From IMG/VR virus record IMGVR_UViG_3300021197_000982, positions 1 to 20,919 of that record: 20,919 nucleotides of DNA; one strand, 5' to 3'. A model generated the notes under the pieces. It did no database searches. It was not told where the DNA came from and saw nothing but the letters and a program-made list of their open reading frames with translations. Positions 4,835 through 14,949 of this stretch are shown one piece after another (the first letter of the stretch is position 1; each line of letters starts with the position of its first letter). Made by a program: the position numbers and the translations under genes. The DNA is from a virus.

Positions 4835-6820
4835 TCACCTTACTATACTAGACGAAGAAGATACTCTTCTGTTGATATTACCTGCAACTAGTTTGCCAAT
4901 TTTATCTGCAAGCATTCTAAGTTCTGCATCGGAGTTACCCTTTGCTTCTACATTAACTGTAATGTTATTGTTATGAGTATTATTTACAGTATTAGAAGGA
5001 GTAGAAAGTAATTTATTAGTTTCGCTATTGTTGTGAACTCTAGCACCTGCCGGTAATTCTACTATTTCTGCACCTCTTTCTCCAACTAAGTAATTTCCTG
5101 CTAGTGAGGCTGTTCCTCCTTTAGCCATAGCACCTTTTACATCTTTAGCAAAGTCAAATGATTTTTCACCAATAAACTTACCCCCCTTGAAAAGAAATTC
5201 ACCTGTTTTACTCGCTACATCTTTTACCTTGAATACTTTATCTAGGTGTGTTCCAAAGAAATCCCTTATTTTATCATACAGTTTTAAAATATACTCCCCT
5301 ACATAATCTCCCGCAGACAACAATGCATCTTTTAAGCCTTCCAATATGCCATCTTTTAATGCTATCAAATTTTCCTTAAACTTTTCATCGAATTTGCTTG
5401 CTAGTGCATATAGTAAAGCGGCCATCCCAATTACAAAAAGAATAGGTAAAGCATACATTCCTGCTAAAGTCAGTAATGATATTGCTATTGTTTTTAACAT
5501 CCATGCCCCTAGTGCTATCTTTAAAATTATTAAACCATAACTTATTACTCTCTCTCTAAATGCAGGGTCGCCAACAAACGCTTCAAAGAATCTTATGATT
5601 AAATCAAAGCCTCCAACTAATGTCATGAATGCTAACTTAACTAACAACTTAGCACCTTTAATTCCTAAATCAACCGCTTTTTCTAATATTGGCCCCAATA
5701 ACGCAAATGCTTTTTGATAATCACCATCTATAAAAGTTCCAATAACTTTGAAAATGCTTCCGACTAAAGAAAAGACCTCCCCTGCAAATGCTTTTATTTC
5801 ATCAACAATACCCATTTCTTGTAAAAATTGGAATATTTCATAAGCGGCTTTAACAAACAATAGGAAAGTTATTACTGCCATCATAGTAAACAAAAAGAAT
5901 TTGAACGCTTGGTTTAATAACGGGGCTAAAGACTTAGTAAAATCACTTGCTTTAGTTGCCAATCGTTTTCTATCCTTTGCTACTTTTAATATACCCGCTA
6001 TTGGGGCTAGTGGCATCATTAAGGCTTTGAATTGTTTAGGGTTAAAGGTCATTCCAAGTGCGCTTTTACCTGCTTCTTTTCTGCTATCCCTTAGCACTTC
6101 GCTTTTCTCAAATTCTTGTTGTTTTTTCTCTTCTTTTCCTTCCCTTTTTGCGGCAAAGAATTGTCTAAATCTACCCTTACCTTCTCCTTGTGCTTTTAAC
6201 TTAGCCTGTTCTTTGGCAATCTTTACTCTATCTTTGTCAAATGCATATTGTTTTTTCAAAACTTTAATGGTTTCTTCATTTTCTTTTTTAGCAGTTTTAG
6301 CCTGTTTATTTAGCATGTTTCTTGTCATTAACAAAGCCTTTGTTTCATCGCCAGTTTGTTTTAATGCTATAGTATAAATGTCTAGTTGCATTACTTCTTT
6401 TTTTAATAAATTAAATTCTTCTTTAGACAAATTTCCCAGTTGTCCTTTACCAACTTCATCTATGGCTTTATTAGCACTTGTAACTCTCTTCTCTAGTTCA
6501 TCATAATTTTTCAAATTCTCTACAACTACTTTATTCTGCTCTTGTAAAATCTCTTGTGCCTTTCTAGCCGATTCGCCAAACTCCGAGAAAGTAGATAGTG
6601 CGGCTCTTAAATAATTTTGAAGTCTCCATAAAGGAGTTCCCGAAACAATCCTACTAAAGATAGTCCACTTTTTACCTGCGCCATTTAATGAGTTTGCCGC
6701 ATCTAAAAATCCTTTAGCAAAGTCATTTACTTTACCAGTTGTGTTAAAGATAGTAGTTTCTAAAGAACCTAAACTGCCATCAATCTTGGCAATTTTTCTA
6801 TTAGTCTCTTCAATATCCAT
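4835..6820 (-). CDS. Tape measure protein
   Basis: A 661-residue protein that sets tail length and usually helps DNA cross the envelope. Residues 1-250 are long charged helices typical of coiled coil. Hydrophobic segments lie at about residues 303-334 and 427-474, with weaker ones near 345-365 and 390-412. The C-terminal part carries the hallmark 'GGTASLAGNYLVGERGAEIV' (568-587) followed by 'ELPAGARVHNNSE', seen in many phage tape measures, and then an Asn-rich stretch. The ATG follows AAGTGATTTAG, where TGA is the stop of the frameshifted chaperone product. It directly follows the chaperone, the canonical order. If fully helical at 0.15 nm per residue, the tail would be near 100 nm, an estimate from length only. 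Confidence 0.93.
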   Translation of the reverse strand: MDIEETNRKIAKIDGSLGSLETTIFNTTGKVNDFAKGFLDAANSLNGAGKKWTIFSRIVSGTPLWRLQNYLRAALSTFSEFGESARKAQEILQEQNKVVVENLKNYDELEKRVTSANKAIDEVGKGQLGNLSKEEFNLLKKEVMQLDIYTIALKQTGDETKALLMTRNMLNKQAKTAKKENEETIKVLKKQYAFDKDRVKIAKEQAKLKAQGEGKGRFRQFFAAKREGKEEKKQQEFEKSEVLRDSRKEAGKSALGMTFNPKQFKALMMPLAPIAGILKVAKDRKRLATKASDFTKSLAPLLNQAFKFFLFTMMAVITFLLFVKAAYEIFQFLQEMGIVDEIKAFAGEVFSLVGSIFKVIGTFIDGDYQKAFALLGPILEKAVDLGIKGAKLLVKLAFMTLVGGFDLIIRFFEAFVGDPAFRERVISYGLIILKIALGAWMLKTIAISLLTLAGMYALPILFVIGMAALLYALASKFDEKFKENLIALKDGILEGLKDALLSAGDYVGEYILKLYDKIRDFFGTHLDKVFKVKDVASKTGEFLFKGGKFIGEKSFDFAKDVKGAMAKGGTASLAGNYLVGERGAEIVELPAGARVHNNSETNKLLSTPSNTVNNTHNNNITVNVEAKGNSDAELRMLADKIGKLVAGNINRRVSSSSSIVR

Positions 6821-6825
6821 CTAAA

Positions 6826-7394
6826 TCACTTTTTACTTTTCATTTTCTCATACTCTTCGGCTTTTAGCGTTTCTATCACGCCATGAACACTTAATAAATC
6901 CTTTACAAGACTTATTGGCATTTTATAGACTTCTAATGGACTAATGTGTAAAGCACTAGAAAGCGAGTAAACCATAATTAGGCTCGCTGTCTTGAGGTCG
7001 GAACTACCTCCTTTAAGTGCTTTTTTAATTAGTCCTTTTTTTCTTCATCCTCCTGTAACATTGTCATAGGATTAGGTAGGATTGATTTAATTTGATTTCC
7101 AATATACGGGCTTAATCTAAGCATATCAACCGATGAGAGTGTTGGTTCAGTTTTAGATATGAAGTTATCTACCATGTAGCGATACATGGCATTCAAATCT
7201 AAATCTAAATTTTGCGTTCTTGTGTCTATCTTCATGACAGCATTTAACGCTTTTTCAGCCTCTAGCCATGTGGGTTCTTTTACCCACACTTTTAGATATT
7301 CGTCTTGGTCGGGTGCTACTTTAACATAGTGTAGCGTAGGCTCTTGTAGCGCAAATAGCGCATCTTTATTCTGTATTACTTTCTTTTCAGTCAT
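6826..7394 (-). CDS. Tail assembly chaperone long form (gpG-gpT type) made by -1 frameshift
   Basis: The minus-strand frame -1 to the chaperone gene opens just upstream of the slippery site (its previous stop is at 7045-7047) and runs to a TGA at 6826-6828, five bases before the tape measure ATG. A -1 slip on A-AAA-AAG at 7035-7041 joins 120 residues of the short form to 69 more, giving 189 residues. The extension is helical ('LSSALHISPLEVYKMPISLV', then 'KDLLSVHGVIETLKAEEYEK') and ends in Lys-rich sequence, without a good independent start. In lambda and many other tailed phages the equivalent gpGT fusion coats the tape measure and recruits tube subunits. Everything but the use of the slip is visible in sequence; that the slip occurs is inferred from how precisely the known arrangement is matched. 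Confidence 0.85.
6994..7010 (-). other. Small stem-loop downstream of the slippery site
   Basis: GAGGT (7010-7006) can pair with ACCTC (6998-6994) across a seven-base loop in the mRNA. The distance from the slippery site, about 24 bases, is larger than the usual 5-9, so a role as frameshift stimulator is uncertain. Confidence 0.3.
7029..7394 (-). CDS. Tail assembly chaperone short form (gpG type)
   Basis: The zero-frame product has 121 residues from the ATG at 7394. Longer frames reach a TTG at 7418, but the ATG is preceded by AAGGTGGATA, a good ribosome binding site, so I chose it. The protein is acidic at its end ('MLQEDEEKKD') and predicted to be mostly helical, with 'LKVWVKEPTWLEAEKALNAV' reminiscent of chaperone proteins that bind the tape measure. 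It lies between the tail tube gene and the tape measure gene, as in lambda and HK97. Its last codons contain the slippery heptamer, so most ribosomes would stop here and a minority would make the extended form. The leader upstream can fold so that the ribosome binding site is hidden (see 7399-7440). Confidence 0.88.
   Translation of the reverse strand: MTEKKVIQNKDALFALQEPTLHYVKVAPDQDEYLKVWVKEPTWLEAEKALNAVMKIDTRTQNLDLDLNAMYRYMVDNFISKTEPTLSSVDMLRLSPYIGNQIKSILPNPMTMLQEDEEKKD
7035..7041 (-). promoter_or_regulatory. Programmed -1 ribosomal frameshift site A-AAA-AAG
   Basis: Read on the minus strand, the zero frame is GAA-AAA-AAG-GAC-TAA, which places the heptamer A-AAA-AAG in exactly the phase needed for tandem -1 slippage. 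This is the slippery sequence of E. coli dnaX and of many phage chaperone genes. AGGAGG lies seven bases upstream (7048-7053), resembling the Shine-Dalgarno-like stimulator of dnaX. The zero-frame stop follows one codon later, and the -1 frame continues for 69 codons. Confidence 0.88.
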
Positions 7395-7448: not shown

Positions 7449-7586
7449 TTACTCGGCTTTTGGAGTTGTTTTTTTCTCCTCCTTAGCCTTTTTTTCTGCC
7501 TTTGCTTTTGCTTTGGCTTCTGCCTTTGCTTTTGCTTCTAACTTTTTAGCAATTGCCTTTCTGTATAGTTCATGGTAAGATGCCAT
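7449..7586 (-). CDS. Small Lys/Ala-rich basic protein, 45 residues
   Basis: Short reading frame filling the space between the tail tube gene and the chaperone. The ATG at 7586 comes after GGATGATTTAA, where TGA is the tube gene's stop, the same junction design as at neighbouring genes. The start 'MASYHELYRKAIAKKLEAKA' is followed by alternating Lys, Ala and Glu and ends '...EEKKTTPKAE'. It would form one long basic helix, similar in composition to histone H1-like tails. The role is unknown: a nucleic-acid-binding or tail-assembly accessory peptide are options. The codons of the KA tract are varied (GCA, GCC, GCT; AAA, AAG), which fits selection on the protein rather than a simple DNA repeat. 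Confidence 0.65.
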   Translation of the reverse strand: MASYHELYRKAIAKKLEAKAKAEAKAKAKAEKKAKEEKKTTPKAE

Positions 7587-7591
7587 TTAAA

Positions 7592-9211
7592 TCATCCCTG
7601 TAAAATCCAATGAGTTGTAGTTGTGCAAGAGTGTAAAGTTCTCGGCATCACTGTTGCTTCTACTGTAATTGCTCCTTTATCTTCGGGAACAGTCCAAGTA
7701 TTAGCAGATAAGAAATAATCTCTAAAACTAATAGCAAATGTCTCTCCACTATCCTTAGTAAATGATAAAGAGAGTAGGCTTTCATAGTCCTCGCCACCGT
7801 CATTACCATCACCATCGTTTTCTGCTTGGTTTAACAATTCTGTAAATAGTGTATCGTCGGTCACTAAAGCAGTAAAGGCAATTTCATAAGTTCTTTGTGC
7901 AGGGAGTCCTTCTTTAATGCTCTTATTTCCTACTCCTAAGAATCTCTTATCTTGTAAGTTATTGTTAATAGTTAATGTAAAGTTTGTAATCTTTAAGAAC
8001 TGTTGTCCAAAAACACTCATAGTTCCATCGGAAAAGAAAAACGGTTCTAAATGAGTTGGGTCGGATTCAAAATTAAATAATTTTCTATTATCAGTTTGCC
8101 CCCCTCTTGATTCGTAGCCTGTGCTTGGGCTTGGTAATGCTTGTGGGATTTTAGTTACTGCTCTAGTGTTTAAGTCCATAGTCATTTTAACTTCTTCATT
8201 TTCATTAGCAGTTAATGTTAGGGTATTAACTCTATTTCCTCTAGCGATTCTAACAAAGTTAATGTCTTCTGCATCATTATCTTGGTCGGATTGAAAGTTA
8301 TTTGCTACATCTTTTGTTAATGAATATTCCAAAGCAAAAGAAGGTAAGTGACTTCCATTAGTTTCTGCAAACTTGTATGTGATAAATCCTCCTGTTGCAG
8401 CAACGGGATAAGTAATGGAATCAAAATGAGTTTGTGGTGCGCTTTCAATTAGAACATTAATTGGAGGAACAATATGAACAGAAGGTGTGCTACCATCACC
8501 AACAGGATTTACTCTATGAATAAATGGCCCTTCGTCTATATGTGAAGTAGCACTCGTTCCGTGAAAATATAATTTATGCGCCGCAGTTCCAGTGTGTCCA
8601 TCTGCCACCGGATGTTCGCTTGCGGAAGTAGAAGCGGGAGTTAATTCAGTACACTTACCTAAAGCATAATAAAGCCATGTGACTTGATTACAAACCAATG
8701 CAAGATTACCTCCACTAGCAGTTTCTATTCCTTTATATTGGTGAGTAAAGTTTCTTGAACCTCCTAAAGACAAGTTAAGTTGTTTCATTTCAACTTCTAT
8801 ATTAGGGAATGTAGCAGTTTCAACAAGTCCTAACCAGTTATCAGCATGTAGTCTTGTTTTACCTGTTCCGTCATCATCCGAATCAGGAGCAGGACAAGGT
8901 GCGCCATATGCTCTTAAGATAAAAGTATCTTCAGCAATAACAACGGCTGCACTCGTAGCGGGAGTTATTGTAAAAGTATCATGGTCGTTAGTTGTAATAG
9001 TGTGAGAAGAAGTATATACGCCATCATCGTACCAATCTAATGTGCAACCAATATACATATCGGGAACTAACTGAAATTGAGCCAATGCTGATTGTAAAAA
9101 TTGAATTTGAGTTGTACTAACAGTCGCCGGTTTGAACGGAAAGTCCAATTCGGGTACTAAAGTCATTGATGCGCCGCTACCTAAAAATATGCTACTGTTT
9201 TCTACTGCCAT
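7592..9211 (-). CDS. Major tail tube protein
   Basis: A 539-residue beta-rich protein, longer than common tube proteins (about 150-350). The ATG follows AAAGGAAAGGAGAGAAGAATT. Residues 133-185 show a tube-like pattern: 'FPNIEVEMKQLNLSLGGSRN', then 'KGIETASGGNLALV...WLYYALG', comparable to 'G.i.fel.p.glg.ll..alG' of tube proteins. The C-terminal third ('FLKITNFTLTINNNLQDKRF', 'TYEIAFTALVTD', 'GAITVEATVMPRTL') has alternating strands usual in this fold. About residues 34-102 look like an inserted module resembling repeats in the distal tail proteins. The gene sits between the terminator-like gene and the chaperone/tape measure pair, the expected position. Confidence in the role is good from pattern plus order; the family is not pinned down. 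Confidence 0.78.
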   Translation of the reverse strand: MAVENSSIFLGSGASMTLVPELDFPFKPATVSTTQIQFLQSALAQFQLVPDMYIGCTLDWYDDGVYTSSHTITTNDHDTFTITPATSAAVVIAEDTFILRAYGAPCPAPDSDDDGTGKTRLHADNWLGLVETATFPNIEVEMKQLNLSLGGSRNFTHQYKGIETASGGNLALVCNQVTWLYYALGKCTELTPASTSASEHPVADGHTGTAAHKLYFHGTSATSHIDEGPFIHRVNPVGDGSTPSVHIVPPINVLIESAPQTHFDSITYPVAATGGFITYKFAETNGSHLPSFALEYSLTKDVANNFQSDQDNDAEDINFVRIARGNRVNTLTLTANENEEVKMTMDLNTRAVTKIPQALPSPSTGYESRGGQTDNRKLFNFESDPTHLEPFFFSDGTMSVFGQQFLKITNFTLTINNNLQDKRFLGVGNKSIKEGLPAQRTYEIAFTALVTDDTLFTELLNQAENDGDGNDGGEDYESLLSLSFTKDSGETFAISFRDYFLSANTWTVPEDKGAITVEATVMPRTLHSCTTTTHWILQG

Positions 9212-14286: not shown

Positions 14287-14949
14287 TCAATAATCCTTTA
14301 TCATAGTAGTTATTCCTTTATACACCATCTCAGGGTCGGACTTAGCCGATACTATATATTTGAAACAAGGTATTCCCTTGTCATTTAACTGCCTCATTCC
14401 ATACTTAAAAGGTTCAAATATTTCATGTTTGTCTATGGGGCTATCACTTTTATACTTCTCTCCCCACATATCATACTTGTTTCCCCATATTCCTACGGCT
14501 ATAGGATAATCCGCTTCTTTTTTCTTTCTACCCGAAGGCCACCTATCTGCCACAATAGTATCTACTAAAAACTTCCATGCTAATTGATGGTCTAAATTAG
14601 AAGGAGAATCTAAATGTCTATGGTCTATCATAAAAATAACATATCTTACTCTACGCTTCTGCATATCTTTGACCCATTCTTTCCAATAGATTGCTTCCCC
14701 TCCCAAGTCAGCACTCTTAATTGTGTGAGAACTACCATCAATCTTAACATTCTTTCTAGTTGCTCTATGTAAGCCAACGGTTCTATCCTTTATTGTGGGG
14801 ACTTCACCCCTTGTTCTAAGTTGATGACTAAGAGTTGTTTTACCAACCATTGTAGAACCATATACACCAAAGTTAATTGCATGAACTTTTTTGTAAAAAC
14901 CTATTATGGCTTCACCAACTAATATAGCAAAGCCTGTCATTATAGACAT
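14287..14949 (-). CDS. Membrane-anchored small GTPase of Arf/SR-beta-like type
   Basis: The 220-residue protein has a complete set of G motifs: G1 GSTMVGKTT (31-39), a G2 Thr near 57 ('DRTVGLH'), G3 DLGGE (81-85), G4 NKYD (157-160) and G5 SAK (201-203). G1 lacks a Gly/Ser-rich loop of P-loop ATPases, and DLGGE followed by 'WKEW' resembles the WDxGGQ.. region of Arf-type GTPases rather than TRAFAC translation factors. A hydrophobic stretch at residues 3-19 precedes the G domain, so it probably sits in the membrane with the G domain in the cytoplasm, like SR-beta. The Gln used for catalysis in Ras-like proteins seems to be Glu85, so hydrolysis may be slow or altered. It is flanked by two membrane proteins and a zinc-site protein in the virion operon. 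A role in assembly at membranes or in host secretion is conjecture. Confidence 0.85.
   Translation of the reverse strand: MSIMTGFAILVGEAIIGFYKKVHAINFGVYGSTMVGKTTLSHQLRTRGEVPTIKDRTVGLHRATRKNVKIDGSSHTIKSADLGGEAIYWKEWVKDMQKRRVRYVIFMIDHRHLDSPSNLDHQLAWKFLVDTIVADRWPSGRKKKEADYPIAVGIWGNKYDMWGEKYKSDSPIDKHEIFEPFKYGMRQLNDKGIPCFKYIVSAKSDPEMVYKGITTMIKDY

Follow-up and report, generated by a model that had tools for sequence, protein, structure and literature searches.

A predicted programmed -1 ribosomal frameshift in the tail assembly chaperone gene of a magrovirus-like virus and its relatives

The tail assembly chaperone gene of tailed phages contains a conserved frameshift, which is -1, -2 or +1 depending on the phage, and the arrangement is conserved even though sequence similarity between phages is low (PMC5009743). 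In archaea, -1 frameshifting has been shown experimentally mainly in one gene, that of the Sulfolobus alpha-fucosidase, and a few frameshifts in haloarchaeal viruses have been predicted from sequence (PMC8211752). The G/GT gene of phage lambda has the gene order tail tube, G, T, tape measure, gives a short and a fused product and shifts in the -1 direction. The lambda heptamer is G_GGA_AAG and the host is bacterial. E. coli dnaX combines the heptamer A_AAA_AAG with an upstream Shine-Dalgarno-like (SD-like) element and a downstream RNA structure, and the shift yields a shorter product. In phage Mu, the tail chaperone frameshift is in the -2 direction. Among archaeal tailed viruses, the records of HCTV-1, HCTV-5 and HVTV-1 (Druskaviridae) annotate a joined two-frame chaperone gene just before or close to the tape measure gene, with a G-rich SD-like stretch 5' of the heptamer.

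The window analysed here is the whole of a 20,919-base IMG/VR virus record (IMGVR_UViG_3300021197_000982), a metagenomic contig. The chaperone cassette lies on the minus strand and contains the following features.

7592 to 9211, minus strand: tail tube protein gene, 5' of the chaperone; match to PF18906 Phage_tube_2 at 5.2e-11, over the cut-off
7029 to 7394, minus strand: 0-frame open reading frame (ORF) of the chaperone, G-like domain, 121 aa counting the stop; ATG at 7394-7392, TAA at 7031-7029
7049 to 7054, minus strand: AGGAGG, SD-like putative stimulator, ending 7 nt 5' of the heptamer
7035 to 7041, minus strand: slippery heptamer A_AAA_AAG in X_XXY_YYZ phase, followed by GAC and then the 0-frame stop TAA
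6950 to 7023, minus strand: predicted three-way RNA structure, 11 nt 3' of the heptamer
6826 to 7035, minus strand: T-like extension in the -1 frame, 69 codons and a TGA (6828-6826)
4835 to 6820, minus strand: tape measure protein gene, ATG at 6820; PHROG tape measure match at 2.4e-5

On the minus strand, the G ORF ends in CAG GAG GAT GAA GAA AAA AAG GAC TAA. A sequence-only reading of the window had proposed a -1 programmed frameshift with an SD-like element at this point. The in-phase A_AAA_AAG near the end of the chaperone gene, the AGGAGG seven bases upstream (7054-7049 versus 7041-7035) and the -1 frame of 69 codons that ends five bases before the tape measure ATG are all found as that reading described them, and comparison with relatives supports the frameshift itself. 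It is highly probable that this virus, of the magrovirus type, decodes its tail assembly chaperone gene with a programmed -1 ribosomal frameshift; the predicted G-T fusion has 189 aa (120 + 69). Most ribosomes would terminate at the TAA at 7031-7029 and release G (121 aa), the short form of the chaperone. It is proposed that a minority pause at A_AAA_AAG because AGGAGG pairs with the tail of the 16S rRNA and the RNA structure ahead resists unwinding. Both lysyl-tRNAs would then re-pair one base back, and 69 further codons would give the 189-aa fusion. By analogy with phage lambda, G would coat the tape measure and T would recruit the tail tube, so that the ratio of G to G-T would matter for tail assembly.

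The cassette resembles that of phage lambda in gene order, in its predicted short and fused products and in the predicted direction of the shift; the heptamer and the bacterial host are different. With dnaX, an unrelated gene that is also from a bacterial host and whose product is shortened by the shift, it shares the heptamer and both kinds of flanking element. The spacing of the SD-like element in dnaX is similar to that in the window. The downstream structure is a simple hairpin in dnaX, whereas the predicted structure in the window is a three-way junction. HCTV-1, HCTV-5 and HVTV-1 have capsid proteins related to that of the window at 25% identity and share its gene arrangement, but host, sequence and most heptamers differ. 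Because counterparts are annotated in these three viruses, a chaperone frameshift of this kind is already known in archaeal viruses and the window adds another case. The locus had been called one of few cases in archaea, on condition that the host is archaeal, which is right, except that the counterparts in HVTV-1, HCTV-1, HCTV-2 and HCTV-5 were already predicted and annotated. In the literature searched, with subscription papers outside its scope, no report of magrovirus frameshifting was found. Added here are a magrovirus-type family, evidence of selection on the elements and a variant with T in a shifted frame; the analysis of selection on the SD-like element and the stem covered the magrovirus-like family only.

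The chaperone gene is flanked by the tail tube gene (PF18906) on one side and the PHROG tape measure gene on the other. The window chaperone has a PHROG tail assembly chaperone match (1.4e-4) and no Pfam match. Matches to phrog_25860 (tail assembly chaperone) are present in 11 of 15 aligned relatives (best 1.2e-5) and are weak but consistent. There is no detectable homology between the window chaperone and HCTV-1 gp122 (hhalign probability 0.1%). Searches of the phage collection returned no match, either with the tail region at the nucleotide level or with the tail tube protein by tblastn. Between the tail tube and chaperone genes, a small lysine/alanine-rich ORF of 45 aa, read by eye, is located at 7449-7586 on the minus strand. 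It contains another in-phase A_AAA_AAG, but the -1 frame there stops immediately. A small GTPase candidate is located at 14287-14949 on the minus strand, within the virion gene cluster, with Ras, SRPRB and MMR_HSR1 Pfam matches that are below their cut-offs.

The best reading of the contig is a magrovirus-like tailed dsDNA virus, and the inferred host is very probably a marine archaeon. This reading is based on the major capsid protein matches, on genes found in the large relatives and on the published description of the Magrovirales, whose inferred hosts are Poseidoniales (PMC10768690). In the phage collection, the major capsid protein has matches in nine records, of which eight are haloarchaeal tailed viruses and one is a Methanofastidiosa-assigned virus. 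The large relatives are 68-98 kb in length; a Cpn60/TCP1 gene is present in 10 of 13, TFIIB in one, and a weak, sub-threshold MCM in three. The PCNA (PCNA_N) and archaeal small primase models have no match in the 13 large relatives. The Magrovirales criterion used for comparison, with resemblance judged from the published description, is a genome of approximately 90-100 kb with a chaperonin and an archaeal-type replication set. The only relative from the genome-collection scan, L145 (NZMJ01000011.1), is a 10.5-kb contig that carries the viral chaperone and tail tube genes and is filed under a bacterial (Maricaulis) MAG. It is most likely a mis-binned viral contig, probably of an archaeal virus, and is set aside as host evidence.

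Relatives were gathered by single-protein, profile and pattern searches of IMG/VR, together with the one genome-collection contig. The site is covered in 168 distinct sequences, many of which are akin to each other and are therefore not 168 independent trials; a non-redundant set at <90% identity over the site contains 115 members. All 168 distinct relatives have an in-phase heptamer at the end of G, no more than 60 nt from its stop codon, and beyond it a shifted frame that is open for at least 55 codons. The open shifted frame is -1 in 156 relatives and -2/+1 in 12. The heptamer is of the A type in 73 (A_AAA_AAC), 25 (A_AAA_AAG), 6 (A_AAA_AAA) and 1 (A_AAA_AAT) of the 168 sequences, and of the G type in 35 (G_GGA_AAC), 22 (G_GGA_AAA), 3 (G_GGA_AAG) and 3 (G_GGA_AAT). 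The share of A_AAA_AAG is somewhat enriched because the pattern search targeted this form. Swapping among canonical slippery types fits selection on slipperiness and not on amino acids. The other window genes, with 5,487 codons between them, contain 13 in-phase AAAAAAN or GGGAAAN heptamers, and only 1 of 18 of these genes has one within its last 20 codons. Given this sparseness against 168 of 168 relatives, chance is no reasonable explanation for the site. The conservation check suggested by the sequence-only reading thus finds heptamer class, phase, SD-like element and shifted-frame coding capacity all kept.

The SD-like element is selected at the nucleotide level, as judged from codon use among the 115 non-redundant members. 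Where its central codon encodes Glu, it is GAG in 59 of 59 cases (background in G genes 21%), and where the codon encodes Gly, it is GGG in 48 of 54 (background 17%). The pairing energy with the anti-SD sequence is -11.0 kcal/mol compared to -6.3 in synonymous shuffles. The anti-SD used is an assumed archaeal-type sequence, although GGTGA/GAGG-type sites are present before genes of the window itself.

The T domain can be aligned over all relatives and contains the motif Y.L..AL.ISPLE.YKMP.SLV.DLL.VH. When the window is compared with L037 and L100, its nearest relatives, dN/dS in T is 0.00-0.06 at a dS of 0.19-0.36, and the constraint on T is at least equal to that on G. By these measures, the T domain is under purifying selection. 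A rival account has T translated as a separate protein without any frameshift: ribosomes would reinitiate after terminating on G, or start internally, with AGGAGG as the site at which they bind. In its favour, AGGAGG is strong as a ribosome binding site, and sites of the GGTGA/GAGG type are in use in the window. An ATG in the T frame is present at or near the G stop in 19 of 107 non-redundant -1 members and in 8 of 8 non-redundant shifted-frame members. However, 59 of the 107 non-redundant -1 members, the window included, have no ATG, GTG or TTG in the T frame between the stop that precedes it and codon 12. In the window, a TGA closes the -1 frame just a few codons 5' of the slip point. From this stop up to the conserved domain there is no ATG, GTG or TTG, and an ATG first occurs deep within the domain. 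Separate synthesis also leaves the in-phase heptamer in every relative unexplained. It is a very improbable account of the locus, although the best placed of the alternatives to a programmed -1 frameshift.

Both putative stimulators looked for, an SD-like element upstream and an RNA structure downstream, are present, the latter as a prediction. The sequence-only reading had named the first, which stands, and left the second unmentioned. Folding was scored as z against synonymous shuffles. In A_AAA_AAN members with a -1 frame, the 63 nt directly after the site fold beyond synonymous expectation (mean z -3.2), as does the same stretch in the shifted-frame group (mean z -3.7). The next two 63-nt stretches are without excess folding (z -0.3 and +0.4). 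For a fixed stem of 15 pairs over 71 sequences, 76% of outer-stem cells are paired compared to 63% (sd 1.1) after synonymous shuffling and 38-52% when the stem is slid out of place, and compensatory changes occur at several positions. An RNAalifold consensus over 73 sequences falls short of the complete stem; loop indels and the differing stems of subclades probably break the alignment. The G_GGA_AAN relatives are mostly without a detectable stem.

The long stem usual in A_AAA_AAN members is not found within 63 nt in the window and its two nearest relatives (z -0.0 to -1.2). Instead, the window has the predicted three-way structure, with a closing stem (7023-7016/6957-6950), a hairpin (7010-7006/6998-6994) and a third arm. 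Its minimum free energy is -24.8 kcal/mol, with z -3.7 over 84-90 nt. A similar fold is predicted in L100 (z -3.4 to -3.5) and, more weakly, in L037 (-1.5 to -1.7). The three-way structure is likely to be real, but this is not secure. A search with Rfam models found nothing relevant here. Two sets of subclade members (L152, L153, L154, L158, L164 and L167; L030, L055, L058 and L185) have hairpins that occupy this position 3' of the heptamer but differ in sequence; one example is GGAAGGC...GCCTTCC, 9 nt from the heptamer. In L030, the hairpin of the second set is not above synonymous shuffles. The differing subclade hairpins look as if the stimulator had been rebuilt.

Slippage of RNA polymerase on the A run could also reach the T frame, by adding an extra A to the mRNA with no shift of the ribosome. 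Seven consecutive A are present in the window, and in the shifted-frame relatives the run is likewise of exactly seven A, with a G after it. The heptamer is G_GGA_AAN, without a long homopolymer, in 63 of the 168 relatives, however, and others have only six A. Polymerase slippage also gives no reason for a fixed SD-like element or for a stem 3' of the site, and it is less probable again than separate synthesis of T. In a metagenomic contig, where A runs are presumably error-prone, it would be conceivable that the open -1 frame is accidental, is decaying or reflects a misassembly, but the 168 distinct sequences from many samples, the purifying selection on T and the conserved site reduce the probability of this to almost nothing.

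Relatives with a disrupted -1 frame had been named beforehand as evidence against a -1 frameshift. Such relatives exist (12 distinct sequences: L008, L016, L019, L020, L025, L028, L032, L045, L049, L065, L138 and L249), but the T domain is intact in them in the -2/+1 frame at the same site. For this reason, they are treated as a variant and not as a refutation. In these relatives, a stop closes the -1 frame shortly beyond the slip point, and in 11 of the 12 just one codon intervenes. All 12 have the SD-like element and exactly seven A then G. As a group, they keep the downstream stem, one base closer, and the SD spacing is the same as in the -1 group. The sequence A7G would allow both tRNAs to re-pair two bases back, which A_AAA_AAC would not. 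With an HIV cassette, a shorter spacer raised the ratio of -2 to -1 shifts, and in arteriviruses -1 shifts at the -2 site run into an immediate stop (PMC5009743). The re-pairing at A7G, the closer stem, these precedents and the unchanged SD spacing favour -2 over +1, and suggest that the shifted-frame relatives use -2 frameshifting. In this they would be similar to phage Mu, which also has the T domain of a tail chaperone in the frame reached by a -2 shift; the slippery sequence of Mu is different from A7G, and the direction in the relatives is proposed from the frame of T and the sequence around the site. A +1 shift is a possible alternative. It is also possible that T is made by internal initiation in these 12 relatives, since all of them have an ATG in the T frame directly after AGGAGG and 11 (all except L045) have a second.

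On the T-only tree, the T domains of the shifted-frame relatives form one group, which requires one change and has a support of 85. The G-only tree needs seven changes between -1 and -2, and few forks are well supported in either tree. A tail tube tree with nine changes, which would indicate many origins of the -2 type, was rejected because the tail tube appears to be unlinked by recombination. L007 (-1) and L008 (-2/+1) have 93% identity over 2.6 kb. This identity ends 39 nt beyond the first base of the heptamer and gives way to approximately 2.4 kb without similarity, which places a recombination junction at the frameshift site. The pairs L027/L032, L037/L049, L034/L028 and L059/L045 break in a comparable way, in some cases as much as approximately 0.2 kb downstream. 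From the tree conflict and the L007/L008 break, T modules of either frame appear to have been attached to one and the same kind of G, with the junction in the site or directly beyond it, which suggests that both frame arrangements work with the same upstream G gene. A joint reading, held tentatively and at slightly under even chances, is that -2 shifting is programmed at A7G, that the stretch from the A run to the stem lost one base, and that the -2 T module arose once and then recombined, at or just after the site, onto many G genes otherwise paired with -1 modules. If this is true, the frameshift site would be both a decoding switch and a module boundary, and the family would provide an archaeal example of -2 shifting.

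The family contains more than 100 natural variants of one cassette, in viruses of probably abundant marine archaea. With these variants, one could test if SD-like elements and stems stimulate shifting by archaeal ribosomes in the way they do in bacteria. The heptamer A_AAA_AAC is much less shift-prone than A_AAA_AAG in E. coli and very shift-prone in mammals (PMC5009743); it is the commonest site in the family, so that its efficiency in archaea could be tested as well. The influence of spacer length on the direction of the shift could be probed with the naturally occurring -1 and -2/+1 forms.
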